A stretch of 64,000 bases of DNA, taken from the NCBI RefSeq assembly GCF_029227915.1, contig NC_079876.1:27191828-27255827 (forward strand), given 5' to 3'. The notes beneath the pieces are model-generated. The model saw only the letters and a list, made by a program, of their open reading frames with translations. It did no database searches and had not been told where the DNA came from. A program made the position numbers and the translations under genes. Below, piece by piece: positions 13,388 through 48,214 of this stretch. Source of the stretch: Hydractinia symbiolongicarpus. Lineage: Eukaryota > Cnidaria > Hydrozoa > Anthoathecata > Hydractiniidae. Each line of letters begins with the position of its first letter. Position 1 is the stretch's first letter.

Positions 13388-14690
13388 AAGGCTTTCGACA
13401 CCATAAGCCATGGTGCAATTCTTAATAAATTAAGTGACTATGGTAACACCTCAGTTGAATATGAGTAGTTTTGCAGTTATTTATTTGGTCGTTCACAGTG
13501 TGTCCACATTAATGGATTTCTATCTGATAGTTTACCTGTATTCTGTGGAGTACCACAAGGATCGGTCCTCGGACCTCTGTTGTTTCTAATCCATTTCAAC
13601 GATATTTGTGACAAGTTGGATAAATGCAAAATACTAATGTACGCTGATGATACTGTGGTATATTTTTCTTACAAAGATTTGTCGACCATCGAAAATACCC
13701 TTCAAACCGAGTTAGTTTCTATTGCTTGGAAGAAAACGAATTAATTATGAATTTGAAGAAGGGTAAGACGGACAGTATGCTCTTTGGAACTGGAAAACGC
13801 TTTTCGAAAGCTGATTACAAATTCTTGTCTTTGAAAATCGGTTCAACAGTCATGTCACCGACTGAACTTTATCTCTTCTATCTTGGTGTTTATTTGGACC
13901 CAACGTTGAATATGTCGATAAACTTTGATAAAATGTATGAGAAAATATCATCGAGAGTTCAATGCTGCAAAGAATCAGATCATACGTAACAACGAAATGT
14001 GCATTACAGATTTACAAATCGTTCATCTTCCCAATTTTGAATTATCGTTCGCTAGCTAACTTAGCCACTTGTATTACAAGAAGCCTGAAAGTAAAGTCGT
14101 TGGAAAATCGTGCGAAGTCTGTAATTGTAAATAACTCTGATGCTGAAATGAAATTTCCAACTTATGAAATGAGCCAAAATAGAAAGTTATGTATTTTCAA
14201 CTATAAATGTTTAAACAGTGAAACTTGTGAAAATTTTGAGGGTTATTTTGATTTAATAGATCATATTATAAGAACACGGAGCAACGGTACATTGGTGAGG
14301 TTGACACGTGTTAGACTGGAAGTTGGTAGGTTGGGATGCTTTTTTCGTGCTGGGAAAGATCGCTGTACGTGAAGCACTAACCTTATCAGACTTCCAGAAA
14401 ATGTTGAAGTAATTTTACTGTGATATACTTATTGAGTCATATTGTCTATCTTTTTGATTTCTTTTTCTTTTCATGTGTATTATTCGTGTGTAAAATTCGT
14501 ATAATTTTGTCCACCATTCTATGGTCCAATTACTTACTATTTGATGTTCAACTAATCTTTTGTTTCGTATTACTCTTCCACTTAGTTCTTAGTTGCAGTT
14601 TATATTTTATTTACAGGAACTTATTAGATAACAGTACCATATTGTAACTGGTTAGGCCATCCTGTGTAAATATTAACTAATAAATAAGTA
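13388..14690 (+). pseudogene. Non-LTR retrotransposon (LINE) reverse-transcriptase fragment
   Basis: Broken frames carry reverse transcriptase motifs in order: KAFDTISHGAILNKL near 13388, FCGVPQGSVLGPLLFLIHF near 13540-13600, the catalytic YADDTVVYFS near 13641-13670, and a LGVYLDPTLNM thumb region near 13880. Stops and frameshifts separate these, and the 5' part (endonuclease) is absent, as usual for 5'-truncated LINEs. The sequence ends near 14690 in a TAAA-rich tail that runs into the microsatellite. The motifs suggest a CR1/jockey-like clade, but I cannot place it firmly. Confidence 0.85.
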
Positions 14691-14720
14691 AATAAATAAA
14701 TAAGTAAATAAATAAACAAG

Positions 14721-14755
<35 letters not shown>

Positions 14756-14865
14756 GACAATATATAAATAAGAAAATAAATTAATAAGAGAATAAATAAA
14801 TAAGAAAATAAATAATAAGTAAATAAGTAAATAAGTAAGTAAGTAAATAATTAAATAACCAAATA

Positions 14866-15500
14866 AACAAATAACCAAATAACCAAATAAACAAATAAAC
14901 AAATAAACAAATAAACAAATAAACAAATAAACAAATAAACAAATAAACAAATAAACAAATAAACAAATAAACAAATAAACAAATAAACAAATAAACAAAT
15001 AAACAAATAAACAAATAAACAAATAAACAAATAAACAAATAAACAAATAAACAAATAAACAAATAAACAAATAAACAAATAAACAAATAAACAAATAAAC
15101 AAATAAACAAATAAACAAATAAACAAATAAACAAATAAACAAATAAACAAATAAACAAATAAACAAATAAACAAATAAACAAATAAACAAATAAACAAAT
15201 AAACAAATAAACAAATAAACAAATAAACAAATAAACAAATAAACAAATAAACAAATAAACAAATAAACAAATAAACAAATAAACAAATAAACAAATAAAC
15301 AAATAAACAAATAAACAAATAAACAAATAAACAAATAAACAAATAAACAAATAAACAAATAAACAAATAAACAAATAAACAAATAAACAAATAAACAAAT
15401 AAACAAATAAACAAATAAACAAATAAACAAATAAACAAATAAACAAATAAACAAATAAACAAATAAACAAATAAACAAATAAACAAATAAATAAATAAAA
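14866..15500. repeat. Giant (AAATAAAC)n microsatellite
   Basis: Roughly 75-78 near-perfect copies of the 8-mer AAATAAAC are preceded by degenerate AAAT/AAGT units (14688-14865). Since 8 is not a multiple of 3 and the unit has no stop on the minus strand, all three minus frames are open; the apparent proteins (CLFVYLFI repeats) are artefacts. It grows out of the 3' tail of the LINE fragment. Confidence 0.97.
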
Positions 15501-16815: not shown

Positions 16816-17557
16816 TATGGCAAGATCGTGAAAAAAAAGTGTTTATAGAGGTCTAGTGGCTGAGTTAACAACTTCTCCAAGTGCGAGAAGATGTATATAA
16901 AAAAAAATATATGTAAAATTATTTTCATAATATATAAGAATTTCTTTACCCTGGGGTGATGCGTAAATGCGATGTGTTTTACATGTTACTCGAAATTTCT
17001 ATTTCAAGGGTGGATATTCCACCAAAGGTAAATATTACTCCAACAACATGTTTCGAGCCCCATAAAATTCTTCATTGGGATGTACTAAAAATCACTGGGG
17101 GAAAATCGTGATAAACGCCTTCTTGAAGCCCACAAAACATGAATAAAGTTTTTGGCTGTTTGGAAATTCCCGAAACGAAAATGAAGAATTTTAATGCTTG
17201 AAATAGAGGGAAGAGTAAAATTTGTTTGTTGTTGAACTTTCTTTTCTTTTCTAAGTCATAAATCGTTCTCTTGATGTCACTTTGTAAATTACTTTTTTTG
17301 TGGAAAGTTGTAGAAAAAGAAAAAGAAGAAGAAGAAAACGATTAAGGAAGAAAGGAAAAAGAAGAAAAAGTACCAACGAAAAAGAAAATGAAAAAGGTAA
17401 TACAAGAAAGTAAAATGATTAACAGGGAAAAAATTGTGGTGTGTGTGTATATATATATATAGGGAGATAGCTAGTAAGAAATAGAAAACTATGTTAAAGA
17501 ATTGTAGAAGAAGAAATCTTGAATAAAACTTGTAATCAAAGATAATATAATATCAAA
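16816..17557. other. Upstream region of the helical-protein gene
   Basis: It contains a purine-rich GAAGAAGAAAA tract near 17310-17400 and a short TATATATA run near 17448-17460, about 100 bp upstream of the start codon. Parts, such as TTTGGAAATTCCC near 17158, match the region upstream of the second copy (near 27220). The duplication therefore included flanking regulatory DNA. Confidence 0.5.
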
Positions 17558-18630
17558 ATGAATTCATTGTTAAGTATAAGTATTGTGATTGGTAAGTTGT
17601 AAACAGATGTGAATAAGATTTCTTAGAAATATCAACACAAACAAAGATATGTAAAATTATAAACACAGGCTACTATGCTAAACGAAAATATTATAAGAAG
17701 AAAGAATAACCTAAAGAGCATATTGACACTGAATTAAATTCTCTTTTTCAGCTTTAACAACTTTGTCAGAAGAACAAGTTATAAACAGCAATCATTGTGT
17801 TGGTACAGACCCATATTTCATGCCACTTGCAAACATCACAAATCACGCTTTGTACTTTGTCAACAAATATAAGATTAATATTGTAAGTTAGTTATGCGTA
17901 ATATAAAAACAAAGAAATTCTTGGAACTAGTTAAATCATGTATATATATATTATTTTTAGGATACTTCAGGCAAAGATAACAGTTGTGATCAAACGTTAT
18001 GTTACATGTTCCATCCAATACAACTAAATAGGAAACTACTGGTAGGTGGCTATTCTCTGTCTTGCTCTACATCTATAAATTTGACAGGTAACAATACAAA
18101 ATGGAGGGACAATTTGCATGTTATATAAGATTAACTTTTTGAAAATTATAAAGTTTTATCTTTCGTGGAAGTATCAAAATCAAATTTTGGTCAAAATAAA
18201 TTCCCATCTTCATATACATTCTTTTACGTTTTCTCTTTAGATTTATGAAAATATTGATATTATGGTCACAAACGTAGAAAAAATCAATTCATATATTGTA
18301 GAAAAAGATATTAACAAAACTGTCAAAAGCCTTCTTTATGTTATGAAAAGACATAGAAAGGTAAAAATATTCTTAATGACTTTTATTAATGCTCAAAGAA
18401 TTTCGTTGATAAATTTAAGCAGTTTCTTTTATAACCAGTGTTGTTTTTCTTTTAAGGACTTCTACAAGTTTGCTCATGGCTCAGAAGTAGTGAAAACGAA
18501 TGTGTATCAAATGAACGTAACTAGGGTACCATCGTGTTGTCACCAAGGGAACGTACAAAAGAAAAATAATTACCAACAATTAAACGTTGTACTTCGAATA
18601 AACTATATGTTTCTTCGAAAACAAATTTAA
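17558..18630 (+). CDS. Small secreted predicted-helical protein, copy 1 (class-I-cytokine-like gene layout)
   Basis: Five coding exons: 17558-17591, 17752-17882, 17961-18041, 18241-18360 and 18457-18630. All have GT-AG borders; intron phases are 1, 0, 0, 0 and the product is 179 residues. The start ATG opens a hydrophobic leader (MNSLLSISIVIGALTTLS), split by intron 1 as in many secreted-protein genes. Mature landmarks are CVGTDPYFMPLANIT, SCDQTLCYMFHP, an amphipathic VEKINSYIVEKDINKTVKSL stretch, VPSCC and a C-terminal basic helix (LNVVLRINYMFLRKQI). It has five cysteines and Asn-glycosylation sequons NIT, NKT and NVT. I do not recognise the family. Length, helix-rich character and exon-phase pattern resemble IL-6/G-CSF/EPO-type genes; a cytokine function is inference. 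A paralogue lies at 27730-28867. Confidence 0.85.
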
Positions 18631-19295
18631 AATCGTTGAAACCACAAAAACACAAAAGTAATAATTTATAGTCAATTTTTATAGGATTGAAATTATTTAT
18701 GTAGTATTTCTATATTTAAATAAATATTTATACAATAGCTGGTCGAGTTATTGGTGCAGAACCTGTATATAGTTAAAGAAAGTGATTTTTAAAAGGCATA
18801 CCCTTTTATATAGATATTACCCTCTCCAAAAATTATTGCTTTTTTGAACTTCTTCCAATATTTTAGAAATATAAAAAATTGTTGTTATATTGATTCGTCG
18901 AGAGCGCACAAAATTTTTTAATCATTCTTTTAAAGGAATGATTTGTACGCTAACATCAGTAATAGGGACAAACAGTTTCTTTAAGACTTGTCCTGTCAGG
19001 CGATTGCATTTTACATCAGAAGTCGAAGTGTTATGTAGTAAGTGTTTTACGAACTTGTATTAATACTAAAATTGTACTTTCTTTAACCAGATTGATTTTA
19101 TGTCACTTGTTCCTACTATTCTGATAAAAAAACACTGCAGAATGTTTCTTTCAGTGCATTTATTTCCGCATGGCTAAGTCGAAATGATGTTATATATATT
19201 TTTTCTCTTTCCTTGTGGTGAAGAAAGCTAGTCTGTTGTAATCTGAATATTTTTTTAAGTTAACAACAAACACACAAGATTATTAATATTAAGAA
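18631..19295. other. 3' flank of copy 1; duplicated segment, no gene
   Basis: Blocks such as GAGAGCGCAC (near 18900) and GTCGAAATGATG (near 19171), ending at about 19290, recur around 21139-21400. They mark a duplicated 3' flank. No exon was seen. Confidence 0.5.
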
Positions 19296-19409
19296 CTAGT
19301 TGGTATCCCGTCTTTTATGTGTCTCATTTCGTTGTGTTTGTAGCACAGAGTTGCTGCTGTGGTACCATTTTACGCAAAGACAGACAAAATACGGCTATTA
19401 TAATAGAGA
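19296..19409 (-). mobile_element. Short non-autonomous Helitron, diverged
   Basis: Minus strand: 5' TCTATTATAATAGCCG, an internal GTCTGTC-like block and GTAAAATGGTACCA. The 3' hairpin is eroded, ending ...CAACTAG before T. Confidence 0.65.
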
Positions 19410-19606
19410 TAAAAATATTTTAATATTCATTAGTAATTCATTAGTAATATTAGTATTCAGTTAGGGTTCATAATCACGAAAAATACGTTCCATAGAAATA
19501 CATGTTTTTTTAAACACGATCAAAAAAGAAAGTTACAACGGCCAAATATATTACTCAACAATTGACAAAGAACTAATAATATTAATAAAATTATGATCTT
19601 TCCTAG

Positions 19607-19633
19607 TTTAATTGACAAAAGTTGTCAATTAAA
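19607..19633. repeat. Hairpin, 12-bp perfect arms
   Basis: TTTAATTGACAA, a 3-nt loop, then TTGTCAATTAAA. Confidence 0.75.
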
Positions 19634-19938
19634 TATAAAGCATCCCTCGATAAAAATATAATAATATACTTAAGGAAATGGCAGATCTTCCCTGGTTTAA
19701 CCCTAAGTCCGGGGATGGGGCGTGCTATACATTCATGCCACATGGATGTGATACTTATGGAGTTGTATTACTGATCTATTAGACACCTTTATGCTGTATT
19801 TTTAGCTCCCGTACCCGATAGACGTTTAGATATTGGTCATTACTCGAAACTACGCTTTAAATATTTTTTGAAATCCTCATAATATAAGTATTGTGAAGTC
19901 GTTCTTACAAAAAAATAGTTGGTATTTCTTTTTTTTAG

Positions 19939-20090
19939 GATTTCTACAAGCTTGTTCATGGCTCAGAATTAATGTAAACGAACGTACAACGAATGAACGT
20001 ATCTCCCGGTACAAAAAAAACAACTCATAATTCATATTCAATTTTTATAGGATTGTTTGGCCAGTTCAAATTCTTATTACAACTAAAAAA
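19939..20090 (+). pseudogene. Relic of the last exon of the helical-protein gene (copy 3)
   Basis: A TTTTTTTTAG acceptor precedes DFYKLVHGSELM and then an in-frame TAA. Copies 1 and 2 read DFYKFAHGSE... and DFHKFAHDLE... at this point. The homologous sequence continues (ACGAACGTAC, ATGAACGTA) with losses. The shared 3'-UTR block TCAATTTTTATAGGATTG follows. Exons 1-4 were not found upstream, so this is a truncated, dead third copy. Confidence 0.75.
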
Positions 20091-20099
20091 AGTCTTTTT

Positions 20100-22451
20100 A
20101 AAGCTCACAGAGATATTGCCATTCTCGGAATGTGAATAAAATATGTCAAAGTAGATCAAGTTTTTCCTAATGTTATTTGTCGATTTTTTTTTATTTCTTT
20201 TAGCGATAAGGTAAAGCTTTCACCAAAAAAGAATTATAAGGATTAAGATTTTTTTAATAAAGCCTGACTTACAGTAATTTTTTCAAGCAAAAAAATTTGC
20301 GTCCTAAAATGAAACAGTTGTAATGGTTTGCAGTATAAAATTTAATGTACCTTGTCGTAAATATTTTTTACTTGTTTTATAAAAAAAATAAGTATTCGAA
20401 TAAGGCAACTCTGAGTGCTGAAAAGACAAAAAAAAAACCCACGAAAAAAAACTGTTTAATTAAAAAATTGTATCAGGATAGGCAGAAAGAAGAGTTGAAA
20501 GTTGGGAAAGTACACAAAAATAATGCAGGTTTTTCGAGATTTATTTTTACGACTTTTTTACATGGTTGCGATGTATTGCGAAATGAATGAGGATTTGAGC
20601 TATCTAATAATTGTTGCGCAGAAAAATCTGGTTTTACAAATAGAATTCATGCTTTTCTATACGGAGCTGAACGCAATAACGCTGTCTCAAGACAAAGGAG
20701 ATAATTGGTTTGATTGTGTTTACGTCAGGAAGAAGAAAGAAAACGCTGCCTTTTCTTCAATTAAGACGGTTGACAAAGAAAAAGGCTGTTAGGTATACAC
20801 CATACGATCAGTTTGTTTGTTTGATTGGTCATTTGTAATAGGAATAGGGACAATTAAATGGCAGCTTCTGCAGATATGTCGAAAAGCAAACAAATTTGTG
20901 CTAAGGTACCAAAAATAACTACTTCAGATCAAGTTTAAAGTTTTAATTGCCCCCCATAAAGACCACTTACATGTTTCCGAAATCCAAGTTTGCAGCTGTG
21001 AAAACATGTTTACGACTTAAATTAAGAATCTTTAATTCCTTTTTTAGATATTGCCCTATCTTTATTATTACCTTTAAATAAAGAGTTTGTGGAAATGTCT
21101 GCTAATGTTTTCAGAGATATAGAGAAATTGATGTTACATCAATTTGTAGAGAGCGCACGAAGAAACAGTAGCTGACTCTGCTGCAAGTGTCTCGTGTTTT
21201 GTAAATATCAGTTTCTATTTCAGTTTGTTTATTAACCCACTCATATTTTCATTTTTCCCAGCGCATTGATCTTCGTCCCGATCCGTCGAAATGATGCTAC
21301 ATATTTACTTTCCCTTCACTAGTTTCTATCGAAACTTGTCTGTTATCATCTGAATATGTCTTCAACTTTAGCAACAATCAACATTAGCACTGTTTAAAGG
21401 TAAAAAATAAATAGCAAATAATGACTCAGCTGTTTCTTCAGGGAATGCTCACAATTTTTTATTACAAGATTATGCGTTTTTTCACCATAACAACAGTGAC
21501 ACGGGAATTTTTTGGAAATCCCCCTGTAAAAACACAAAATTGTCGGCACGATTGGCCTACCGTGCCATAGGCTAGCTTTGTTTACAAGAAAAAAGCTAAA
21601 TCGTCCATAAAATCTTTTAATTAGTCATCAGTAAACTAAATTTATATGCTGCATAACTTTCTCTATAATTTGGCAACTTCCTAAAATGTTAAAACATGTA
21701 AACATGTGTTTAAATAGATAGCTGACTACCTAACGAGATATTTAGAAATGTATCTCTTAAAATTAATTTATCATGAAAATATTTCATATGCAAAGTTATA
21801 CTACATTCGATAATGTGATCATCTCTATTCCTGTGTAATTGTCAAGTAAAAAAAGCTCTGTGTCAATTTTATCATTTTTACATGACTATGAGCATTGTTT
21901 AGTTAGTGATCCTTGCTGTTGACATCAACATGCTGAGACTTACAAAAAATGTGTTAATAGGTTCTGGAACCTAATTAAAACAGGTTATTTTTGTTAATTA
22001 TTGTGATATACGCCATTAAGACAAAGAATGCGTTCCATAGAAAAACTAAGAAAACTCAATGGACCATGCTAAAGTTAAAGTTAAAACTTCGAAAAAATGA
22101 AAAGCATTCAATGACAAATCAATAACCTGCGCAAACCTAAATATGCCATACATAATCAATTTTTTTGGTATGCTGCATGGCTATGCTACATGAAGGAGAG
22201 GCGAATAAAAAAATATTTTGTGGCAACCAGAAAATAAATTTTAAGCGAGATAAAAAAAACTATAGACTTCTAAATCCCAAAATCTACTAAGATAACTACT
22301 ATAATAGAAAATAAATAAATATATTTCACGACTAAGAATATGTATATCTTCCTAACAACAGTTTTACAAAATTTTTATAGCTGTATGGGGTGAAAATAAG
22401 TAGGTTTTGGATGTAATTACTAGTAAACATCAAAAATAAGAACATTGACTT
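20100..22451. other. Intergenic, no convincing gene
   Basis: Two overlapping open frames near 20345-20792 (81 and 96 codons) do not resemble a known family and have no supporting splice context; I leave them uncalled. The duplicated 3' flank of the helical-protein family lies near 21130-21400. The rest looks like plain AT-rich sequence. Confidence 0.35.
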
Positions 22452-22673
22452 CAGATAATCAAGAATATTTTACGTACTATAGTAGTAACAGCATTTTATA
22501 ACCTTCGTCCAGCAACAATATTTTTTCGATGTTTTGAGATTTCTTTTTACAACACACTACGAGCTTTAAACGATGCAGTGTGTTATGATGAGATGGTGCT
22601 AAATTTAATGAATATACAGACCGGAAAGATTCAACAACAAATTAAACACGCAATATGGTGGCTTCATTTTTAG
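22452..22673 (+). CDS. Possible terminal exon, unrecognised
   Basis: An open stretch begins after a CTTCAG acceptor-like site and runs 74 codons to a TAG. Its second half (LRALNDAVCYDEMVLNLMNI, then QQQIKHAIWWLHF) looks coding and helical. No initiator, upstream exon or family match was found, so it may be chance. Confidence 0.22.
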   Translation, partial: QIIKNILRTIVVTAFYNLRPATIFFRCFEISFYNTLRALNDAVCYDEMVLNLMNIQTGKIQQQIKHAIWWLHF

Positions 22674-22827
22674 TCACGAATTTTTACTTTCTTTATCTTT
22701 TTTACTCAGAAATATGTTCAGCAAGTTAGTAGTACATAATAATAAAAATATGTTCATCACATATTGTTCAACATTCTTGTTTGGTAAATTTGTGAAAATC
22801 CTAAATTATAAATAATTCAACACTTAC

Positions 22828-23052
22828 AAAAATATAAACAAAATTAGTATTTTTAATAGACTGTTTTATATTACGGGTCTGGAGTGTTTTTACGTGAAAG
22901 CATAAATTTTTAATAACTCTACGAACATTTTCAATATCAAAACATTCTTTTGTTTCAGGATTTTGTTTTGCCACGATGGCGAACATGTAAATTGACTTAT
23001 TACAGAACAGATCAAGCCAGCCGGTCTTGTCTTCATAATCAACACTGTCATC
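22828..23052 (-). CDS. Internal exon of an unrecognised small gene
   Basis: A 75-codon open block is bounded by a GTTCAG acceptor and a TTT|GTAAGT donor, phase 0 at both ends. It encodes DYEDKTGWLDLFCNKSIYMF, IVAKQNPETKECFDIENV, then VIKNLCFHVKTLQT. It has three cysteines and amphipathic helical segments. Part of it (DIENVRRVIKNLCFHVK) is loosely reminiscent of exon 4 of the nearby helical-protein genes (DINKTVKSLLYVMK). A few bases past the donor there is a TTTAG followed by codons reading DFHKF, as in exon 5 of copy 2, then a quick stop. It may be a diverged or decayed family member in opposite orientation; I could not find its other exons. Confidence 0.45.
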
Positions 23053-23162
23053 CTGAACTTCTATTTACTAGTTCTCCTCTCCTTTAATGAATTTTTATTT
23101 TTATAAACACATGCATGCCAAATTTTTATGTCCCATAAATCTTAGATATTGGCTATTACTCA

Positions 23163-23415
23163 AACCTACCAACTGGTGGCCTTATGGTAGAGCGTTCGCC
23201 TTTAGTGCGGAAGGTTTTGGGTTTAAACACCAGTCGAGCCATGCCAGACACTCCAAAAAAATGAATCTATCCTTTCTGCTTAGCACTCAGAGAGAATAGG
23301 GTTGATATCTTAGACGGTTGTCTAGTTGAGCAGCTGTTGCGCTTGCACGACTTTTGAAGCTCAATAGAGAGCTTTAAATGCCTAGGACACCCCTTTGCAG
23401 GACCCTCATTGATAA
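23163..23415 (+). repeat. tRNA-derived SINE, family A
   Basis: The head GGTGGCCTTATGGTAGAGCG (A box) and GGGTTTAAACACCAGTCGAG (B-box-like), then AGCCATGCCAGACACTCC, are a degenerate tRNA promoter. The body has CGCTTGCACGAC, AAGCTC and CTTTAAATGCCTAGGAC, shared with the copy at 7598-7822. Confidence 0.7.
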
Positions 23416-24069
23416 CAGTTCTATTAAGAACTAAAAAGGTTATTTTGGGTATATAATAGTAATAATGATTATAGTACCCCTAGGATTATACTTAGAATGT
23501 GAAACCCAAAGTACAACTTCATTTTATCAAGTGGAATACATTTGCAAGGTTCTTGATTAACCAGATTCTCTGATGGTTTTCTGAATAGGGTAATCTTTCC
23601 AAGTTTATTCTTTATGCTGCAAATATGCCTGACTATCTCCATTGGTGTATTGGTGAAGCTGTAAATTCACTACATTTGCGCATGCTTTATCCATTTGAAA
23701 GAGTTGTTAATCTGATATTCGCAGTTTCCATCAAATCCATAAATGCAATAAGCCACGTAGAGGCATTCGCAGGTTTCAGGACTTTGGACCCAACCAAATA
23801 ACATAAGATTTTAAGTCATAAGTCATTAGTAAATTCTCGCAAGTTCATTTTAACCTATTCGAAATACGCAAATTCAAGCTAACAATAGCGCACGTACTTC
23901 AAGCCAGCAAATTGCTTGCGGAAAAAAAGTTGCGAAACTTTCTTTAGTAGAATATATTTTGCAAAATTAGCCTAAATCTGTGAAAACAAATTTCGCAGAT
24001 ATAAATTCAGTTACAGCATTTATTTCTTGCATGTTTACTTACCTAAAACCAAAAAAAGTTTTTCCACGG

Positions 24070-24985
24070 TACTCGCAGCTAGTAAACCTATAGTTCGGGA
24101 AAGGTACGAGCATACATTATAAATGGAAGAAAATAAAGCAATAAAGATCTATTGTGACTCGCTTGAATAACAAATTATAAGCTAAACAATTAGTATCGTT
24201 TCTATGGTAACTATCAGAACTCTACACATTCCGTTTTTGCATAATTGCATATAGTAAAGGTCTTGTCTGGGCAGGATATATAAGTAAAACACAAAATGTA
24301 TGTTCCGGTTATTTTCAAGAAGTAAAATTCGGAGAATAAATAAATTGTATTCCCTAGTGGGCTACACCTTCTTAAAATGAAGTTTGGGAAATTTAAAAAA
24401 ACCTGATATAAATAAAATGTTTCGTTTTGAAAAATAAATCATGGACAGAAAGATGAATAACGTTTATGAAGTGGCTTCTGAACTTAGAATGATAGCTGAT
24501 GAAGTAACAGAGGCGTATGGGAGAAACAAACAAGTAAAAAGGAATGTCCACATGCTCGAAAGTGTTTACGTTGTTTCGTCGATGTGTTTCTTTTGTTACG
24601 TGTGCTGCTACAATAAGCTGATAGTGACAGTCGCTGGTGTTTTGTACAAAATATTATTACATCGTTTAGTTTATATGCGGACGAGATGAAGCTATTGTGA
24701 TATATGACATTTGAAGAAAATTTCCAAATGCTTGAAAGTGTTGTGTTGTTGCATTGATATGTGCCTCTTGTCATGTGCACGGTTGTAACAAATCGTTAGA
24801 TTTTCTTTGGTTCCAAAAAAGGTTGATCATGTAATGAACACATCAATTATTTAACACGACAATAAATCATTCAACAAGAAATAGTGTAAAGTATTATGTT
24901 TTGTATGAACGAGTTTATGCTAGAATATAAAAGACTAGTTGTGATCTTTGACTTTATTACTGTTCTAGGCTAAAAGGTGGGTAGA
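24070..24985 (+). repeat. Dispersed ~0.9-kb repeat, inverted relative to copies at 49.3 and 54.3 kb
   Basis: This block matches, in reverse orientation, about 49250-50165 and 54250-55180. It contains an 82-codon frame (24441-24689, starting MDRKMNNVYEVASELRMIAD) kept open in all three copies with a few conservative changes. Its C-terminal part differs in the 49-kb copy because of a deletion. Nearby are two or three ~90-120-bp internal repeats around the CATATCAATGCAAC motif. Whether the ORF is a gene or a passenger of the repeat is unclear. Confidence 0.6.
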
Positions 24986-25029
24986 CTGGATTGGATCTTC
25001 TCAAAAAGTTTAGTGAACATTACTAAACA

Positions 25030-25131
25030 CTAGTCGTTAGCCCGTGGAAAATCCACGGGTTCGCCCGTCCTTTTTATACCGCATTGCGTGCTTATCGCTA
25101 TTGCGCAGCTAAGCTACCATTTTGCGTGAGT
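25030..25131 (-). mobile_element. Short Helitron, truncated at its 5' end
   Basis: It retains the 3' terminus (CCCGTGGATTTTCCACGGG hairpin, CTAACGACTAG before T) and the GTATAAAAAGGACGGGCG block, then stops after AAAATGGTAGC; the TCTATATTATAATA head is missing. Confidence 0.75.
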
Positions 25132-26002
25132 ATTTAAGCATAACAAAGATGGAAAATTTTAGAGCCTATTATTTATGAAATTTTTAATTAAAGAATTGCT
25201 TTTGGAGAAATCCACAAAAATTCGTGAGCATCATTATCTACACATTGGCATGGGGTAATTAAAAGCTAATCTAGGGTATTTCCGAATAAATGTGCACCCA
25301 TTCCTTTTTGACACAAAGGCGATTTTCCTGTTATAAAAGAGACTCCGCAGGTGACATGCTTAAAGAGGGTAAAAAACGAGCGGTTACTTTTTGACTATAG
25401 TGACGTATACGAAAGTCGAGCTTATGGCAAGGGGAATTTTATAAGTTTGTAAGCAATGAAGATACAAACAACATCTTAAATCATCTACGATATTATTTTG
25501 ACCTAGCTAGCTGGCTATTTTCTTTTAAATTATACACAGAAACATATCAAATAATTGCATATAAAACCGGGTCAGGCAACAACAATGGCTTTAAAAATTT
25601 TTAGAGGTATTAATTACATTTTTAGGGATATTTAATACAACAGTTTTAACAAATACAGTCCCTCGTGTTGTTTCTTTTGATTTTAATGTTACGTATTATA
25701 TTTTGCAGGGCGTAGCTTTGCGAGAAAATACAATTAAAATGTAGCAAATCATAAAAGAGTAATTGTTTATTAACAGATTCTCTATTATTTTTTAAAAAAG
25801 TGGGTATAACTTCTTGTATCTGACCTTCTGGGTGGTCTGGTTATTAAACAAAGATATTCGGAATGTGCGAGAATGGAGAGTAAAATCAATTACAGAGATT
25901 TTTCTTGAGCCGTTTTGCAGTCTTTTAAACAATTGCTCTATCTGAAACATACACATGTGTGTATGTTTCGGATGAAAGGACTCGATTCTTATATATAAAT
26001 TA
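25132..26002. other. Intergenic, nothing recognised
   Basis: AT-rich sequence without coding stretches. A short inverted pair, CGAAACATACACAC and GTGTGTATGTTTCG, lies near 25945-25972. Confidence 0.4.
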
Positions 26003-26179
26003 TCTCCTTAATAATAGCCGTCGTCTGTCTGTCTATGTGTCCGCAAAAGCCGTGTCCCGTAACGGAAACACGAAATTTTCAAAATGCGCGTCAATACCAA
26101 ATGCGATATATTTCTGCCCACTTTGTTGAAACGGGTTAATTTAAAGGACTGGCGACCCGTGGATTTTTCAACGGACTAA
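26003..26179 (+). mobile_element. Short non-autonomous Helitron, upstream member of a head-to-tail pair
   Basis: It starts TCTCCTTAATAATAGCCG with GTCTGTCTGTC. It ends with a hairpin near CCCGTGGATTTTTCAACGG and ACTAA. The next base begins another element. Confidence 0.75.
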
Positions 26180-26320
26180 TCTATATTATAATACCCGTAT
26201 ACGTCTGTCCTTCTGTCTATCACGCAAATGGTAGCTTAGCTTCGCAAGTAGGGAGACGCACGCAATGCGGTATAAAAAGGACAGGCGAACCCGTTGATAA
26301 TTCCACGGGCTAACAACTAA
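26180..26320 (+). mobile_element. Short non-autonomous Helitron, downstream member of a head-to-tail pair
   Basis: It starts TCTATATTATAATACCCG exactly where the previous copy's CTAA ends. It contains GTATACGTCTGTCC and GTATAAAAAGGACAGGCG, and ends CCACGGGCTAACAACTAA before T. Confidence 0.8.
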
Positions 26321-27335
26321 TTTAATATAAAAATTAAATTGATCAAAACAGTGAGGCAGAAAATAACTGAAAAATAAAAACAAAATCAGTAATAACAAAT
26401 ATAATATTTAACGGAGAAAATAACATTGAAAAGATCAAATTAATTTCTGTGAGGGAGAGGTACTTCAAAAAGAAACGGGAGATGAAAGAACCAATAGATT
26501 TGGCTTCAACCTGAGGTGTTTTATTCTCTAGCTATTCTTATCCAAATTATTCTCATAAAAAATTATATCTAAAATGTTTTTTAGAGTTATGTATGTTGAC
26601 AAATAAATAAGTTAGGCATTACACATTGATTTGTCTGAGCGTCAAGTGGCATGGTGTCCGTGAATATTCGTGCAAACAGTACGTGTAGACAAAAAAACAG
26701 TTGACAGAAGAAAATTTGATAAAATTATGCTCAAACAAGAAGAAAACACAGTGTTTTGAATTCTTAAAAAGCCTTGTACATTTAGATAAATTGTTAATCT
26801 GTCCGGTACAGTCCTTCGTTTTCTGCCTGCACCTTTTTCCTTAATCTATAATCCCTGCGGACGCCACGTTCGAAAGCAATCTTTTTTTTTTTCTACTATA
26901 TGTAAAAACTAGTTTCCTTTTTTGTCTATTTGATGACATGATAAGTTTACATCGTTAACCAATTTCATCAAAACGATCTAGCCATTCCCTTATTCCATAA
27001 CACAACATTTCTGTTTAAGAATCCTGCTGGTGTAGTCCATTGCCTTGCAAACAGTTTCGGAAATATATTATTGTAAGGTCGAAGACAATGACGAAAATCT
27101 CCCTTTTGCAACTTGTTGTTCGGTTTGTCTACAGTCTAAGCAACGCTTTTAATAATTCATTTAGTTGTAATATAGATATACTTCAAAGAGCATACACCTG
27201 ACTAAGGTTTTTTGTATGTTTGGAAATTCCCTAGAAAGTAGAGATTTAAGTAGAAATTAAACGTTTTATAAAGGGAAAAATAGAAGTTTAGTAATCATTA
27301 ACTACTAACTTCAAGATATAGTTTTTTTCCCTCAA
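26321..27335. other. Intergenic, nothing recognised
   Basis: AT-rich sequence. No exon or element was identified beyond weak similarity to the upstream flank of helical-protein copy 1 towards 27200. Confidence 0.35.
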
Positions 27336-27428
27336 TCTATATTATGATATTTTCATGAGTCTACCTGTAAGGAAAAATGGTAGCTGCACAGCGGCGAATT
27401 CCTGTGGATTTATACGGGTTAACGATTA
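27336..27428 (+). mobile_element. Degenerate short Helitron
   Basis: It starts TCTATATTATGATATTTTCA, keeps AAAATGGTAGCTGCACAGCG and ends TGTGGATTTATACGGGTTAACGATTAG. It sits upstream of helical-protein copy 2. Confidence 0.6.
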
Positions 27429-27729
27429 GCATCATAAATTATTCTTTAAAAATACGCAGTTTAATTTACTGTTGAGAGTGTATCGCTTATTAATGTTGCT
27501 TGGTAAATTACTTTCTCTACAATGAAAGAAGAAACAGAGGAAAAGTACCGATGAAAAGGAAAACTGAAGATGCAGTGTAAAAAGGTAAAAAGAGTTAGCA
27601 GGGCAAATTTATTTTATGTGTATATATATGAAGGGCAGTGGTAAGAAATCTACCAAACTAAGTTAAAAAGTGGAAAAAGAACAAATCTTAAAACAAATTT
27701 TTTTTGTTCAAAGATAATATAATATCAGT

Positions 27730-28867
27730 ATAAAATCAATATTGTGCATAAGTATTGTGATTGGTAAGTTGGGAACAGATGTGAATAAGATTTCTTAGAA
27801 ATATCAACACAAACAAGATTCTTTATAGACTTTTATGGGAAAGAATTACCCAAAGGAAGACACTATAATGAAGAATATGAATATTTTTTACAGCATTAAC
27901 AATTTTGTCAGAAGAAAAAGTTATAAACAGCAATCCATGTGTTGGTACGGACCCATATTTCATGCCACTTGCAAACATCACAATCCACGCTTTGTATTTC
28001 GTCAACAAATATAAAATTAATATTGTAAGTTGATTTGTTATGCCATACTGTATCTCTATAGTTACACGTAGTATTTAAAACAAAGAAATTCTATGAAGTA
28101 GTTAATCTTAAAATAATGTTAGCAAATGTATTTGTCTTTCTTCAGGATACTTCATCCAAAGATAAAAGTTGTGATCAAACGTTATGTTATATGTTCCATC
28201 CAATACAGCTAAGTAGGAAAATACTGGTAGGTTTTGTTTTTTATCTCCTTTCTTTTCTCTTCTTCCTTACCACCTCTATAAAACTTAAATTTAACAGGCA
28301 TCTGTAAAAATTAAGAACAACTTTTATGTACTTTAGAACACACTGAAAGTAATTTTTTGAGTTTTATAAAAGTATTAAAAATGTTAAAAATGCATTTTTT
28401 CATGTTCTGTCTAGATTTATGAAAATATCGATATCATGGTCGCTAACGTAGAGAAGATCAACTCGTATATATTGGAAAGGGACGTAAACAAACTTGTTAA
28501 AGGTCTCGTTGATCTAATGACAAAACGAAGAAAGGTAATAATAAAGAAAAAGTGATAAGAGTGGTATTCATTTAGTATTTTGAGATTTCTGTGTTGATAA
28601 ATTTTTGTTGGTGTATGAATATAAAATGAGTGTTTCTTTTCTTAGGACTTTCACAAGTTTGCTCATGATTTAGAAGTAGTAAAAACGAGCGTGCATCAAA
28701 TGAACGTAACCACGGTACCATCTTGTTGTCAGCAAGGAAACGTACAAAAGAGAAATAATTACCAACAATTAAACGTTGTACTTCGAACAAATTATATGTT
28801 TCTTCGAAAACACATTCACAGTTTATCGAGAACACAAAAAATAATCATTCAAAGTCAATTTTTGTAG
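27730..28867 (+). CDS. Small secreted predicted-helical protein, copy 2 (initiator ATG lost)
   Basis: Exons homologous to copy 1 lie at 27730-27763, 27894-28024, 28146-28226, 28415-28534 and 28646-28867. All splice sites and the 1-0-0-0 phases are intact and exons 2-5 contain no stop. All five cysteines are kept (PCVGTD, SCDQTLC, VPSCC), as are sequons NIT and NVT. The last exon lacks copy 1's stop and runs 16 residues further. The codon aligned with copy 1's ATG is ATA, and no in-frame ATG lies between an upstream TAA and the end of exon 1. The gene is therefore dead, uses another first exon, or starts at a non-AUG codon. Intact exons and splice sites argue against old decay. Confidence 0.75.
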
Positions 28868-28950
28868 AGGAATGATATGCCAGTTCAGACACTTCTTTTA
28901 ACCATATAAGAAAGTCTTTTGTATTTTAGATAGACAGGATGCTTCTTCCT

Positions 28951-30340
<1,390 letters not shown>

Positions 30341-36139: not shown

Positions 36140-39100
36140 CTAAATATCATCTTCACAAGTTTTTCTTCGCTTTTCTGGAACACTATCAGCATCTGTTTCC
36201 ATATCAGTTGAATTGGAACGCTTCTTAGAATTTAGTACACCCAAAATTTGATCAATGCTTGGACGTCTTGTTGGGTCACGATCAAACATACTTGCAACCA
36301 GCTGTCGTATAGCTTCACTATATTTGTATGATACTTGTTCGTATTGAATGTAGCGGATTTTATTATGTACCTGGAAAAATTTGTCTCTGCTACTCGTACA
36401 ACCCTAAAAATAACACACATTCCTGACATTGAAGAAGAACTACTTTGTCCATCACTAACATATTGCCTGGCAGCGAGCGGGATTCGATCCCAGAACCAAG
36501 CCGCAGACGAACCCACTACTCTACGTGTATATGTTATATGTTAGTGATGAACTCAGTTTATCCGGATGGTGTGAATACATAGGTTCCTGAGTCTTCCACA
36601 ACTTTAACTATTCTTCCTTAAGAGCTAATCATACATTGTAAACATCAACACTTAATTAGGTTTAACGAGTTTCACTTTTCTTGTTTATCGAGCATTAAGA
36701 GGGAAAACGGATCAAAAATTAAAGGATACAAGGACTAGATATTTTAGGTTAACATAAATTCTGACCAAAAGTTGTTAGATGGATTTTTTTTAAAAAGCAA
36801 CCAGTTTAGCAAGTGTATTAAAATCTGCAAAATCGCTAAGCAACTTCATGAAAACATGAATATAAGCAACAATTTATATATTCTTGTTTATAAAGGCTTT
36901 GAAAATAAATAATGCCTAATCAAATACAAAAAAGCTTTAAGATTCCATTTCTCCTTAGATAATCGTTACCTTTTATCATTTAATACTTTTTGTTTCTCGC
37001 CTTTTAAACCAAATAGCTATTTGCTACGTGGGTATTATGTAAGAACTGTGAGTTCGTGAAAAAATCCACGGAGATTTTCGTTTGTTACAGGTATCTTTTT
37101 ACCCAGAGGCAGGCAGCAAGAATTACAATATAGATAGGTGAATCGGCGTTGAACGGTTGGTCAAGCGCTTAAGTGCAGCTAAATCGTGCCACACAAAAAG
37201 GTGGTTGAGTTAGCAAAAGTGTAATTTAGAATGACATGAGTTAAGGAGTCAGATTGGATTAATCAGATTTCACTTGCTCATTAGTTGATGCAGAATATAA
37301 ATATTTTGCATTTCGTTAACCGTCGTTAACCTGTGGAAAATTCTACGGGGTCGCCCGTCCTTCATATATCGCATTTCATATATCGCATTTCGTGTTTTCG
37401 TAACAAGAAGACAAACAGACGCACGAACAGACAGACGACGGCTATTATTATAGGGATTGTGTAAGGAATTATAGGAAGCGTGCTGGCACGCGAATTTTGA
37501 TATTTGCACGAAATAACAAATTCGATAAATTTTATTGACTTTGGCTGTTGTGATTGCTCATCACGAAGCCCGATTTTAACGAATAACCAATCAAAATGTT
37601 TTTCGCAGCCTAAGCACTCGGACGAAGAAATACTAGGGCAGAGCTAGTGCAATGGAAGTTAATTTAGTAGCATGGGGTCGAGGTTATATTTTTTCCCTTT
37701 TTATTTTCTAAAAGCGTTTTATTTTTGTAATATATATCTTTCCTTGGATAATGTTATTGTTTTATTTTTTATTTAGCAATCTGATTGGTGCAGTTTGGGA
37801 TATTTTGCCTACAAGGTTGGTTGCAACAAAACTTTTTAGCTGGTTAGACAAATCTTTCTTATGCTAAATGTACCTACGTAACTACAACTTTGATGGTGCT
37901 ATAAACTTGGGTGAGATTTTGAAATTTATTGACACAATGGCAGGTATACTGTACACAAAGCAAAACAGTCTTAGTAATACTTTTAAAGTTGGCTAAGTTT
38001 TGTTTACAATTAATTTTTGAATTTTACAAATCTTATTCCACAAAATAAGATTTTTGTGTGAATTTTTTAGGCTATTTATCCAAATGTATAACATTTACGT
38101 TTAATATTTGCATATTTTAAAAAACTTATTATGCAAAATGAAATTGTTATGAAAAACTACCCAATCAATCAAAACAGATCGATATGTCTACAAGGGAGAC
38201 AACTAAAAATATATTGACAGATATATCTATATCCTTACTTCAACATTAAATGTTTTTCTCAAAGTGAGCATTTCATGTAGAAGGCAACCCAAAGGCCATA
38301 AATCTGTCTCCTTAGTGTGCCTAAAAGAAAACATAAACAAGAACCTTAAAAAGCTCTTAATGTCTGTGCGAATGAAATTAAACATAACACAAAATATGTT
38401 GATCTAACTTGCATTTCTGACCATAGCCACTCGGCCACGCGCCATTTTTAAAGTTAGTACACTGTAACACCCTTAAAGAGGCTGCAGAACTGTTCAATTA
38501 AGTTCCCTGTCACTGTTCCAATATTTTAAAATACAGTATGTATTAAATGAAATATCCAAACAGGCACAAAAAAATAAAAAGATTTATATTAAAATAGTAT
38601 TAATGTCAAATAAATTATAAATAGGAAAATGTTTACAATCGAAACTTTTTCGTCATTTTTAGTCATTTTTAGTCAATTTCAGCTGGCTAATGTGATTTAA
38701 GGCGTTGTTTTGTCATCAAAGTGCATTATCTCGACTTTATAGCTTAAGTGACTAAAGTCAAAAACCAACAGTTCGTTCTGCAACCCCTTAAAGGTCCTAT
38801 GAAAAAGTAAACAAATAAAAATACTTTTCCGGTTTTAAGACAGTTTCAGGATGTTGATAATATCTTGCTTCATGGATGTACTGCAATAAAAGGAAGATAA
38901 CATACATGTAAATAAAACAAGTGATGCACAATGGAACATTCCGTTAGACATCGCTTGTTAAACTCTGTATGCTCTATAAGCGTCAGATTTTCTTTACAAA
39001 TCTGATCTTAAAAATCATAAGCAACTGGGTCTTATTAGAACCTAAAAAACAACACTTTTTTAGGTGTTCCAGCTTGAAAACTCTCTTTCATGTTTTTATG

Positions 39101-41468
39101 CTAGCGCTAAATGTGTTTTAGACAAATGTGCTAAATTGTATTAAATTAAACCTGTAAAACAATAAAAAAGTTGTTGCTGATCAAAGAGAAATTCATTTCA
39201 CACTTTTTTTCCAAATATTCGTACAGGATAGTTACTTCAGTGATCAAAATATATTAAACAATGCCAATTCTGTCTTCCCAACACATTAGATATGCATCAG
39301 AATTGCTACATAATTTTCCCCTGAGTTGACATGTTATGGTACATGCAAAAACAAGCCTATATGCTGTGGACTGAACTACAACCATATGACTACGAGGGAA
39401 ACCCAATAATCACTCTACCACATCGAACAAACATGGCCACAGCCCATGTGAAAGTATAAATAGCACAACTGCTTGTTTTGTTATATATAACATGAAGACA
39501 AGAGAAAAAACAACAAAAACATACCATCAATGTCGTAGGCAGTCTTGTTTCTTCCTCAAACTCAGAGATAACTGGCATGTTTAATTTGAGGACGTTGTTG
39601 TCATACATCAGAAAGTGTTTCATTGTGATACCCTTCAATGTTAAACCTTGATTGTGTAGGTACTTTGTTGCTTCTGCAATTTGCAGGAAGTATATTAAAA
39701 TTTCCTGAAACACAGACAATAATTGTACGGAATTGAAACAATGACAAAAATGGATCAGAAATCCAAGAGAGTGTTGTATGACCTCATCCTACAAGTCTTT
39801 CTAATTTCTAGAAAAATTCTTTTTCACAGATATTGTCATAACTAAAACAAATTCTATTTAACAGTGTCAATTGCCTAAACCTAAAACTTTAAAGTGCTTC
39901 TCAAATTAACTCTAAAAAATGCTACTATTGTATAAAGAGAAATATAGATCACCTGCTCGTCTAAGAGAATATCCTCTTTTCGCCTTTTGCGCAGATAATT
40001 GTGTAAGTTATCTAAAGTATATAGGAAATAAAGGAAAAACTTAATAAAAGACCATAAAATTATCACAGAACCATCATTACTGGCAAGAAAAGGAAAAATA
40101 CTGAATAATATTGATTTTACAAATAATATACAAACTACAAAATTTTCTAAGCACCTTCAACAAATATCCCTTTTGTTACAGCAAATTCATTAGTCCATTT
40201 TTTTAAGAGCATAATCTACATTAGCATGATTTAAGTATGTGTACTTGACTTAATGCTCTGGTGCAAAATTGTTACTAAATTAACCACACTTACTTGGTGA
40301 CAAGCATTCTGTCATTACACACATTGTATCTTCTTCAATCCAATATTCATGGTATTTGACAATATGCGGATGTTCAAGCAGGCAAACTTGATTGAGTAAA
40401 TCTTTTAGTTCTTTTATTTTATCGTCATGTACTCTATGCCTTCTTCTTTTCAGACTAATTTTTGCAATCGACATACAACTGTTTTTAAAATTAAATAAAG
40501 AATAGATAGATTTGTAACATAATCTTCTACAACAATACTTTGGCTTAGATATTTTATTCAAGTATTTGTGAGTAATAGTGAACATCTAAAATTCTAAAGA
40601 GGTATGGGACATATAATTATACAGCATACAGGTGCCTTATATAGATAATTATGAAATCTCATGAACAAACAAAAGTATCATATCCATGCAGCATTGTAAA
40701 AAAGAGTTACTAAAAAACAGCAGAGCAGGGGTTGCCTTCCTTCGAGATCGAATAGGGTTAGGATACATTATTGCTTTAATTTTTGTTATCCAAGCAGGAT
40801 TTTTGCATATTGTAAAATTTATCCAAAACTATTCATACCAACATGTGGGAAAAAATACAAGAACAATAAGTCAACAAAGAAAATTCTATGTAACAATCAT
40901 ACAATGAAATAATCTTAACTCTTTTCTTTTTGTTTAAATGTATAGATACAATTTATCTAGGTTTAAGGAAGGTATTTGACAAGGTATAGACCACTCCATT
41001 TTCCGTGGTAAACTGAGGCAAGTTAGTACTGATAAACTGACCAAAAGGATTAAATCATTCCTAAATACAGAACACAATATGTTTACGTTAAGGGGTAAAA
41101 TTTTACCTGCTAGATCAGGGAGTACATAGAAACTTGTTCTTGGCACATTGCTTTTCCTAATTGTGGTTAGTGATATCAAAATGAACAAAACGATTTTTTA
41201 TATGCAGCTTTGCTGATGAGACCAGAATAAATAAAGAGATTAATGACCTCATGGACCACTTAATAATAATACAGTAAAAACTGCTGAATAAAATCAAGTA
41301 ATGCTGTCCAAATTTCTACAAATTTTTTAACATATTAATTATGCACCTAACTAATCTACAACCAGAAGCTATGAACAACCGTGAAAATTTAACAGAGTAA
41401 GAAAAAAAATAAAATAAAAATTTGGTATATATTTACCCAATTCTTTTTTTATCAGCCGAATCTTCCAT
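36140..41468 (-). CDS. NEK-like protein kinase fold, predicted pseudokinase
   Basis: Seven exons in transcript order: 41437-41468, 40294-40478, 39953-40011, 39525-39704, 38825-38880, 38239-38320 and 36140-36370. Phases join throughout, giving 274 residues. Landmarks in order: MEDSADKKRIG; SIAKISL (VAIK lysine); CLLEHPHIVKYHEYWIEED; the hinge MTECLSP; YFLQIAEATKYLHNQG; RYYQHPETVLKPE (APE region); DLWPLGCLLHEMLTL (subdomain IX); and ASMFDRDPTRRPSIDQIL (subdomain XI, NEK-type). The catalytic HRD is replaced by LKG (GLTLKGITMKHFL) and DFG by NMP (KLNMPVISEF), so phosphotransfer is unlikely. No glycine-rich loop was found between exons 1 and 2; it may be lost or in a small missed exon. The tail has basic NLS-like patches (SKKRSNS, EKRRK). 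STKLD1-like NEK-related pseudokinases are a possible comparison. Confidence 0.85.
36440..36530 (-). repeat. tRNA-like SINE head, third type
   Basis: The minus strand reads GTAGAGTAGTGGGTTCGTCT, then GGGATCGAATCCCGCTCGCTG, a tRNA-like A/B-box pair. It sits in the last intron of the pseudokinase gene, so it is a transposed SINE rather than a tRNA gene. Confidence 0.5.
37045..37135 (-). mobile_element. Strongly decayed short Helitron
   Basis: The minus strand keeps TCTATATTGTAATTCTTGC at the head and a CCGTGGATTTTTTCACG-type hairpin at the other end. It is intronic. Confidence 0.5.
37318..37455 (-). mobile_element. Short non-autonomous Helitron
   Basis: Minus strand: CCCTATAATAATAGCCGTCG, CTGTCTGTTCG, then GGACGGGCGACCCCGTAGAA. 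It ends TTCCACAGGTTAACGACGG, so the CTRR end is eroded. It is intronic in the pseudokinase gene. Confidence 0.65.
38400..38450 (-). repeat. tRNA-Ser/Leu-like fragment
   Basis: The minus strand reads GGCGCGTGGCCGAGTGGC, like the 5' arm of a class-II tRNA. No T-arm or acceptor 3' half follows, so it is a fragment or SINE head. Confidence 0.35.
40955..41300 (+). pseudogene. Degenerate LINE reverse-transcriptase fragment
   Basis: Broken plus-strand frames read DHSIFRGKLRQVSTDKLTKR, IKSFLNTEHNMF, then LGTLLFLIVVSDIKMN and DETRINKEINDLMDHLNNNT. These align with the palm region of a non-LTR reverse transcriptase (..GPLLFLI..DI.., ..ADD..). It is distinct from the copy at 13388-14690 and lies in intron 1 of the pseudokinase gene. 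Confidence 0.65.
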
Positions 41469-44892: not shown

Positions 44893-46640
44893 ATGAGTTG
44901 CTATTGCTTCATTTTCTCAGAAATAGCAAAACGGTACAGTGCTGAGGAAACTGCTGAATTGAAAATGAATGAAAATGGTGAAATGGATTCAGCTGACTCG
45001 CTTGACGAAGAATTCAGTTCAGATGCTGAATCAACTTCCGAATCCGAAATAGAAAGTGATTCTGAAGAATCTGACTTTACTGGTCGCAAAATCCTACAAA
45101 ATATTGCTCCCCAAACACATAGGGGAAGGGAGGATTAGAACAAGAGATGGTGCATTCAATATCCGTGGCCGAGGTCGAAGTGTAAGGACGCGTGGTGGCC
45201 TGCAAACTGCAGCACATCGTTTAAAAATAACAAAAGGAAACATTGAAGACTCCGAGGATTCTGCCACAGAACTTAGCTCAAGAGAAGAAAACGAAAACAA
45301 GGAAGAAGAAATATCGAGTGGAGGTGATTCTGCTATTCGTAATGATCTCATTGATGAAAAGGGCCCTGTGAATGAATTTGATTGGTTAGACGATGTCCTT
45401 ATTATAAAACCATTTGATTTCAATGAAGATACTGGGTTGCAGGTACAGGTTCCTATTGGAGATGATCCTTTGTTTTTCTTCAATCTATTCATAAACGACG
45501 AACTTTTACAAGAAATCGTCGATTGATCAAATGCATATGCAGATCGTGTTATAAACTCCTCTCGTCCATTGAGACGGAACAGTATCTTGAATACATGGAA
45601 TAACGTAACATTGGAAGAGATGAGACAGTTCCTCGGTTTGATTTTTCACATGGGTCTCGTTGCTATGCCATCATATCGCTGTTACTGGTCTACAGACCGC
45701 TTATACAAAAACGAACTGTTCAAATCAGTAATGTCTAGAAACAGATTTCAATCAATCATGCGATTTTTGAATTTTGGCGAGGAACCATAATTTCAGAATG
45801 ATCGATTGAGTAAGGTCAGATTTCTCTTGAATCACCTCAACAGCACAGTTGCTGATGTCTACACACCTGAAATAGAACTATCCTTGGATAAGTCGATAAT
45901 GCTTTGGCGAGGGCGATTGATTTTTCGCCAGTATATTAAAAACAAACGGCATAAGTATGTGGTGAAGTTTTTCGAATTGTGGTTCGTTCTAAAAGCAGAG
46001 ATTTATTCAGGTGTGAAATTTCCAGACACTGAAGCATTGGAAAAACAGGAGCTGTTGTTATTCACCTAATGAATTCCTATCTGGATAAAGGGTACCATGT
46101 ATTTTAACGACAACTGGTACAATTCCGTGCCATTGACAAAGCACATGACGCAAAGGAAAACTTACATTTCTAGCACCCTACGAGCAGACAGAAAACACCT
46201 TCCCGAGGAAGTTACAAAGAAAAAGTTGAAAAAATGAGAAATGATTTTTCGGTCGTCAGACGACATTTCTGTCACAAAATGGAAGGACAAAAGGGATGTT
46301 TGTATGATCAGCAATGCATTCATTCCTGAATTGGTTAAGACCGTAAACAGACATGGGAAATCTAGACAGAAGCCAAACATTGTGGATATTTACAATCAAA
46401 ACATGTCCGGTATTGATCGATCAGATCAAATGCTCTCGCATCATTCTGGATTGAGGAAAACAATCAGATGGTACAAAAAGGTCGCCGTCCATATCTTGGA
46501 AATTTTCATGGCAAATGCTTTCTACCTATATAAAAAGGCAACTCCATCTCCAAAAGTTAAAGCCATGAAAGGATTCAAGGAAACCATTATAACGAGACTG
46601 GTTGGCCAACCAAAACCATCGAAACACATGCAACCATAAG
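44893..46640 (+). pseudogene. piggyBac transposase, frameshifted and stop-interrupted
   Basis: An acidic N-terminal region (DSADSLDEEFSSDAEST, SDSEESDF) precedes the DDE_Tnp_1_7 core. Core landmarks: LGLIFHMGLVAMPSYRCYWS; LSLDKSIMLWRGRLIFRQYI (first catalytic Asp; the usual DE is DK); FNDNWYNSVPL (second Asp); MSGIDRSDQMLSHHSGLRKT (third Asp); and HILEIFMANAFYLYKK. Premature stops or frame changes lie near 45136, 45523, 45788, 46067 and 46235. All three catalytic Asp codons survive, so the breaks are fairly recent. Parts of the middle (around 46020-46090) are lost. It cannot make transposase as it stands. Confidence 0.9.
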
Positions 46641-46860
46641 CTTCTATTCACTACTTAGCTGCGATTGAACAACAGAAAAAAAGAAAGACACTGACAGAAC
46701 CTGCAAGCACTCTGCTCATCAAATGGTAAAAGACGCGAAACAAGATACACATGCCCTTGATGCCCACAACAACCAGCCCTATGCATTGATCCATGTTTCC
46801 GCATCCATCACCGGAATATTGGCGTTGCCGGTTTCATCATCATCTGAAGAGGAGTAGTTC
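46640..46860 (+). pseudogene. Decayed C-terminal cysteine-rich module of piggyBac
   Basis: In a shifted frame a PALCIDPCFRIHHRNI motif near 46773-46820 resembles the CxxCxxxPxLCxxxCFxxYH zinc-binding tail of piggyBac transposases. It is separated from the main frame by stops. A second copy lies near 52410-52455. Confidence 0.65.
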
Positions 46861-46945
46861 GCCTCTCTTAGTATTCTCAGTTATAAATACATGTACAGAC
46901 ATGTAATTGTGACAGTTTGCTTTGAAACAATGTGTTTTTCTTCGT

Positions 46946-47305
<360 letters not shown>

Positions 47306-48172: not shown

Positions 48173-48214
48173 GTTGTCATCACAGAGTCATTTTAATGAC
48201 TCTGTGATGACAAC
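48173..48214. repeat. Perfect 20-bp-stem hairpin with 2-nt loop
   Basis: GTTGTCATCACAGAGTCATT, TT, then its exact reverse complement. The duplicate copy is at 53447-53488. Confidence 0.9.

Follow-up and report, generated by a model that had tools for sequence, protein, structure and literature searches.

We analysed a 64,000-nucleotide stretch of DNA from the cnidarian Hydractinia symbiolongicarpus (hereafter the window; C2:27191828-27255827 of the 480,894,487-base assembly), in which two related spliced genes lie in tandem on the forward strand. These genes, referred to here as copy 1 and copy 2, are LOC130627456 and LOC130630457, and their NCBI proteins are P0002 (isoform X2 of LOC130627456) and P0004, respectively. 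A third sequence, P0003, is a 195-amino acid relative read from a 920-nucleotide contig (source 'lgn'). Both copies comprise five exons separated by GT-AG introns in phases 1-0-0-0 (Table 1), and exon mapping thus confirmed the positions and intron phases proposed for them in a preliminary description of this DNA. Introns 2-4 are backed by P0003, while intron 1 is in phase 1 whichever first exon is taken.

Exons 2-5 of both copies are under purifying selection. The identity between the copies was 92, 91, 75 and 89% for exons 2, 3, 4 and 5, respectively, and 58-79% for the four introns, with intron 2 (79%) exceeding exon 4. The nonsynonymous divergence (dN) was 0.093 and the synonymous divergence (dS) 0.446 by the NG86 method, and the differences at the three codon positions numbered 15, 16 and 42. 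The 34 amino-acid changes (M1I counted) compare with a neutral mean of 48.8 and a minimum of 35, none of the 5000 simulations being as low. Exons 2-5 of copy 2 aligned with P0003 as blocks of 44, 27, 40 and 73 residues (35, 20, 34 and 60 identical), free of gaps at every junction, and the C-terminal tail of copy 2 was also detected in P0003; P0002 and P0004 span the same exons, starting at residue 35. The simplest view of the 920-nucleotide contig, in which the four blocks follow one another without introns, is that of a spliced transcript, with a retrocopy as the alternative. Both genes are real. All five cysteines (27, 64, 69, 149 and 150) and both sequons (N39 and N142) previously described as conserved are common to copy 1, copy 2 and P0003, and the residues unique to one of the three sequences number 18, 9 and 22, respectively.

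Table 1. Exons of the tandem gene pair and associated features
Feature	Position	Strand	Evidence
Copy 1, counterpart of alternative first exon (TKKKMKKVIQE; ATG at 17388; donor A/GTAAAA, phase 1)	17376..17409	+	Inferred; weakly conserved, 25/38 bases
Copy 1, exon 1 (leader; MNSLLSISIVI plus first base of next codon)	17558..17591	+	ATG, perfect donor GTAAGT, phase 1; predicted
Copy 1, exon 2 (Cys27, sequon N39; helix A in model)	17752..17882	+	GT-AG, phase 0 after; matches P0003, and P0002 from residue 35
Copy 1, exon 3 (Cys64, Cys69; AB loop in model)	17961..18041	+	Gene model, protein matches, AlphaFold2 model
Copy 1, exon 4 (helix B and the greater part of helix C in model)	18241..18360	+	Gene model, protein matches, AlphaFold2 model
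Copy 1, exon 5 (helix C end, CD loop, Cys149-Cys150, helix D in model; stop TAA)	18457..18630	+	Gene model, protein matches, AlphaFold2 model
AATAAA/ATTAAA polyadenylation-type signal, 89 bases past copy 1 stop	18719..18724	+	Sequence
Decayed third copy: exon 5 piece with in-frame stop (19926-20004) and 3' sequence (20013-20055)	19926..20055	+	Similarity to copies; between both genes
Copy 2, counterpart of P0003-type first exon (MKRKTEDAV*K vs MKRQIEDAMQK; in-frame stop; donor G/GTAAAA, phase 1)	27551..27584	+	P0003 peptide match
Copy 2, counterpart of exon 1 (ATA replaces ATG)	27730..27763	+	Copy comparison
Copy 2, exon 2	27894..28024	+	P0003 block; P0004 from residue 35
Copy 2, exon 3	28146..28226	+	P0003 block
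Copy 2, exon 4	28415..28534	+	P0003 block
Copy 2, exon 5 (16-residue tail, common to P0003; stop TAG)	28646..28867	+	P0003 block

A protein search with spliced copy 1 matched LOC130627456 isoform X2 at 100% identity across 81% of the query; of its 22 candidates, three scored at E <= 10, namely, LOC130627456, LOC130630457 and P0003, and a profile search yielded the identical three among 3304 candidates. When the three family members were joined end to end as the query, none of the 8000 candidates scored gave a longer isoform (about 313-996 amino acids) at E <= 10. Searched in six frames, the assembly yielded seven matches to P0002, every one at 17820-28816 of the window, and nine to P0003 at E <= 10, of which eight were at the same locus and one elsewhere at E 0.92. 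At E 0.001, the 481-Mb assembly showed no further copy, in a search of best-scoring candidates only, from which distant copies could escape. Among the IMG/VR viral contigs, 80 stretches fit a pattern and none encodes a relative.

The preliminary description had recognized no sequence family. In Pfam, copies 1 and 2 had no match near any cut-off and P0003 had none at all. Cytokine families were neither listed by Pfam at E <= 10 nor detected among PDB sequences, a negative that is not defining for a helical cytokine, since cytokine families rarely match each other. The Pfam candidates SRR1, PreP_C and DUF5339 (E 0.038-0.11) fell below their own cut-offs, each matching one copy only, and were rejected. 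A match to the octopus chemotactile receptor CRT1, a Cys-loop receptor, was attributed to chance: it covers only 37 residues, its E-value rose from 0.0022 to 0.014 with the family profile, and the matching stretch does not have the full ligand-binding domain and transmembrane helices of a Cys-loop receptor. In the part of the literature searched, LOC130627456 and LOC130630457 were not mentioned.

The fold was modelled in two AlphaFold2 jobs, each using a three-row alignment of the three database sequences, with P0003 or P0002 first. The best P0002-first model had a predicted local distance difference test score (pLDDT) of 60.1 and a predicted template modelling score (pTM) of 0.54, and contained helices at 3-16, 49-66, 70-95 and 116-144 and short strands at 19-22, 35-38 and 109-112 (model numbering; addition of 34 gives the 179-residue copy 1 numbering). 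The helix connections are long, short and long, as in up-up-down-down cytokines, a likeness that rests on connection lengths, with handedness and direction aside. In this low-confidence model, the AB loop, which bears Cys64 and Cys69, coincides exactly with exon 3 (residues 56-82); helix B starts at the first residue of exon 4 (83-122), which ends within helix C; and exon 5 supplies the CD loop, the Cys149-Cys150 pair and helix D. After re-alignment of the structures, the top 11 among the 50 matches listed were class I cytokines. The model thereby suggests a four-helix protein with long, short and long connections, in which exon 3 encodes the AB loop and helix B opens exon 4. The 'helix-rich' exons and 'basic C-terminal helix' described earlier rest on this one model of low confidence.

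Taken together, we consider, at a probability of roughly 40%, that the tandem gene pair encodes a small disulfide-bonded helical protein acting like a class I helical cytokine, which makes it a credible but unproven ligand candidate. We keep the pair as a candidate and do not assign it to the class I cytokines, since fold, secretion and receptor, by which that class is defined, are at most predicted here. The helical cytokine reading of the preliminary description is supported in part, by the copy 1 model and the exon layout, and finds no backing in the P0003 model; it appears to have passed one risky test, the copy 1 model, weakly. Structure prediction followed by Foldseek, proposed earlier as a check of this reading, was run on the database proteins and gave the four-helix copy 1 model at pLDDT 60, with no significant match.

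A number of results weigh against the cytokine reading. The other four of the five P0002-first models had pLDDT values of 46.7, 39.4, 35.1 and 29.4, and the P0003-first model (pLDDT 35.3, pTM 0.30) showed an alpha+beta outline, with a cytokine in 0 of its 50 structural rows. Foldseek detected no match to the copy 1 model at E 0.001. The PDB E-values, from 0.56 up, resemble the noise level, since a viral fold library gave E-values from 0.46 up, with no cytokine named among the 50 matches listed, several of which were nameless. The amphipathicity of helices A, B and D was non-significant (p 0.086, 0.20 and 0.60, respectively), and conservation of the supposed core was not significantly higher (9/13 vs 20/34). 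The strand propensity (1.09) exceeded the helix propensity (0.99), a composition given less weight because the genome is AT-rich. At the 5' end, the ATG of copy 1 exon 1 is ATA in copy 2, and the N-terminus of P0003, MKRQIEDAMQK, is joined straight to exon 2, leaderless and without exon 1. Finally, the class I receptor profile EpoR_lig-bind (PF09067) gave no match at E <= 1 in the genome in an exon-by-exon search, which CRLF3-like receptors could escape.

A distinct possibility is that the pair encodes a small secreted protein that is specific to the lineage and has another fold, such as a gland, nematocyst or immune effector, with a cytokine-like exon layout by chance. Among 5.8 billion proteins, no more than three relatives were found at E <= 10, including the two genes of the window itself, and this scarcity, together with the Pfam result, the strand-leaning composition and the alpha+beta P0003 model, argues for such a protein; it is, moreover, common for leaders to carry phase-1 introns and for other regions to carry phase-0 introns. 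However, the better of the two models has a four-helix arrangement with cytokines as its best neighbours, and AT-rich codons by themselves raise N, I and Y, and hence the strand propensity.

Exon 1 is the weak point of the gene models, and 'secreted' is unproven because of the ATA in copy 2 and the different, leaderless first exon of P0003. Between the copies, 27/34 bases of exon 1 are identical, compared with 71/75 in the immediate flanks (Fisher p 0.033). Of the five coding exons described earlier as shared, exons 2-5 stand, on the P0003 blocks and purifying selection, but the split leader does not: copy 2 has lost the ATG, P0003 uses another first exon, and exon 1 falls below its flanks in conservation. 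Within 17536-17644 and its copy 2 equivalent, 27708-27816, intron 1 opens with 53 bases of which 51 are identical between the copies, above the adjoining exon 1; this conserved intron start may be a regulatory element or part of an alternative transcript. Over the six frames of the window, the best match to MKRQIEDAMQK was at 27551-27583, on the same strand and 179 bases upstream of copy 2 exon 1, with a phase-1 donor directly behind. Of 300 shuffled queries, 3 reached this score somewhere in the window, with position, strand and donor uncounted. The upstream stretch of copy 2 is interrupted by a stop, and its copy 1 counterpart is open. The family may therefore have two alternative first exons, one with a leader and one without. 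Use of exon 1 would give copy 1 a secretion signal (peak nine-residue Kyte-Doolittle mean 2.83), whereas P0003 has none; copy 2 can begin only at Met35, leaderless, since the sequenced allele is without either upstream start.

These observations bear on a second alternative, which we judge improbable, that the protein is not secreted, exon 1 being non-coding, transcription starting upstream, and translation starting in the upstream exon or at Met35. The in-register match of the P0003 start upstream of copy 2, with its fitting donor phase, the start of both NCBI proteins at Met35, and the low conservation of exon 1 with no ATG in copy 2 are consistent with this explanation. On the other hand, copy 1 retains an ATG, a hydrophobic leader and an in-phase consensus donor, and the conserved cysteines and sequons fit secretion. 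In addition, a longer, leader-using X1 is conceivable, as the database cluster of P0002, named 'isoform X2', comprises two members. Decay of copy 2, or of both copies, to a functionless state in this animal is very unlikely: copy 2 is without ATG, its other first exon is interrupted by a stop, and a third copy is already reduced to a fragment, but the frame and splice sites of exons 2-5 are intact in both copies under purifying selection, and a leaderless form from Met35 is still possible.

If the gene pair encodes a cytokine-like protein, the product would be a soluble ligand that bridges receptors at the cell surface and signals via them, with the AB-loop cysteines (64 and 69) probably disulfide-bonded to the pair ahead of helix D (149 and 150). 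The choice between two first exons, the signal-peptide type of copy 1 and the P0003 type without, would set secretion, and copy 2, with its leaderless start at Met35, may be losing the secreted form. In its most specific form, the proposal is doubtful: a pair of class I-type helical cytokines in a cnidarian that follow the exon-to-helix plan of vertebrates, with a secreted/non-secreted first-exon switch and possibly a role as CRLF3 ligand. Should the exon plan and fold both hold, the helical-cytokine ligand class would predate the cnidarian-bilaterian split, or the convergence would be striking; if true, the field gains a defined gene for testing. No helical cytokine ligand of a cnidarian was described in the part of the literature searched for cnidarian or invertebrate ligands.

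Other features were noted in the window. Between the two genes, 21086-21161 and 21252-21380 resemble DNA downstream of copy 1. A tandem duplication of about 5 kb occupies 46581-57237 (48454-52219 vs 53511-57237 at 97%, plus two collinear pieces), in which the start of a Helitron coding region is present twice (51859 and 56877), and Helitron remnants with broken frames lie at 58254-61034 (Helitron_like_N, E 7.9e-26, and a Pif1-type helicase piece). We also identified piggyBac-type transposase pieces (45527-46636; DDE_Tnp_1_7, E 2e-17 and 9e-18), a reverse transcriptase fragment (13469-14369; RVT_1, E 2.7e-11, stops read as X) and, on the minus strand, an exon bearing the end of a DUF5578 domain (1863-2174; E 3.7e-9). 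Two exon-like pieces at 36143-40585 on the minus strand, which match protein kinases below threshold (E 0.006 and 0.0048), are perhaps one spliced kinase-like gene. A 1-kb repeat occurs in three copies, at 23975-24968 (opposite strand), 49281-50268 and 54287-55282, the first being 86-87% alike to the others. Long perfect or near-perfect microsatellites are located at 14675-15499 (8-base unit x103), 28950-29320 (TTTA x92) and 46948-47305 (AT x179). Neither Rfam families nor tRNAs were found in the window.

Genes for class I helical cytokines usually, though not obligatorily, have five coding exons in phases 1-0-0-0, and exon 4 of human EPO starts near helix B. The gene pair shares with this class (EPO/TPO, IL-6, G-CSF, growth hormone/prolactin and leptin) a length of about 180 residues, four introns in phases 1-0-0-0 and, in the copy 1 model, an AB loop on its own exon, a helix B that opens exon 4, and the top structural neighbours among the matches listed. 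It differs in having no sequence match, a weak model and an unconserved leader exon, and in its five cysteines with an adjacent pair ahead of helix D. On our own reading of the junction probes in the available part of one report, exon 2 of human EPO ends, and exons 3 and 4 start, between codons (PMC12832296). Class II cytokines (IL-10 family and interferon lambda) are likewise five-exon helical proteins. According to the available part of a second report, interferon-lambda has an extra 5' exon, a zebrafish interferon has an alternative 5' exon removing the secretion signal, and IL-10 family introns split no codon (PMC2654155). The zebrafish exon parallels the two first exons proposed here, whereas intron 1 of the present genes is in phase 1 and splits a codon. 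With respect to the receptor, cnidarians are reported to have CRLF3, an orphan class I cytokine receptor, the natural ligand of which is called unknown in the accessible part of the source (PMC6797617); CRLF3 would be a candidate receptor type for the products of the gene pair.

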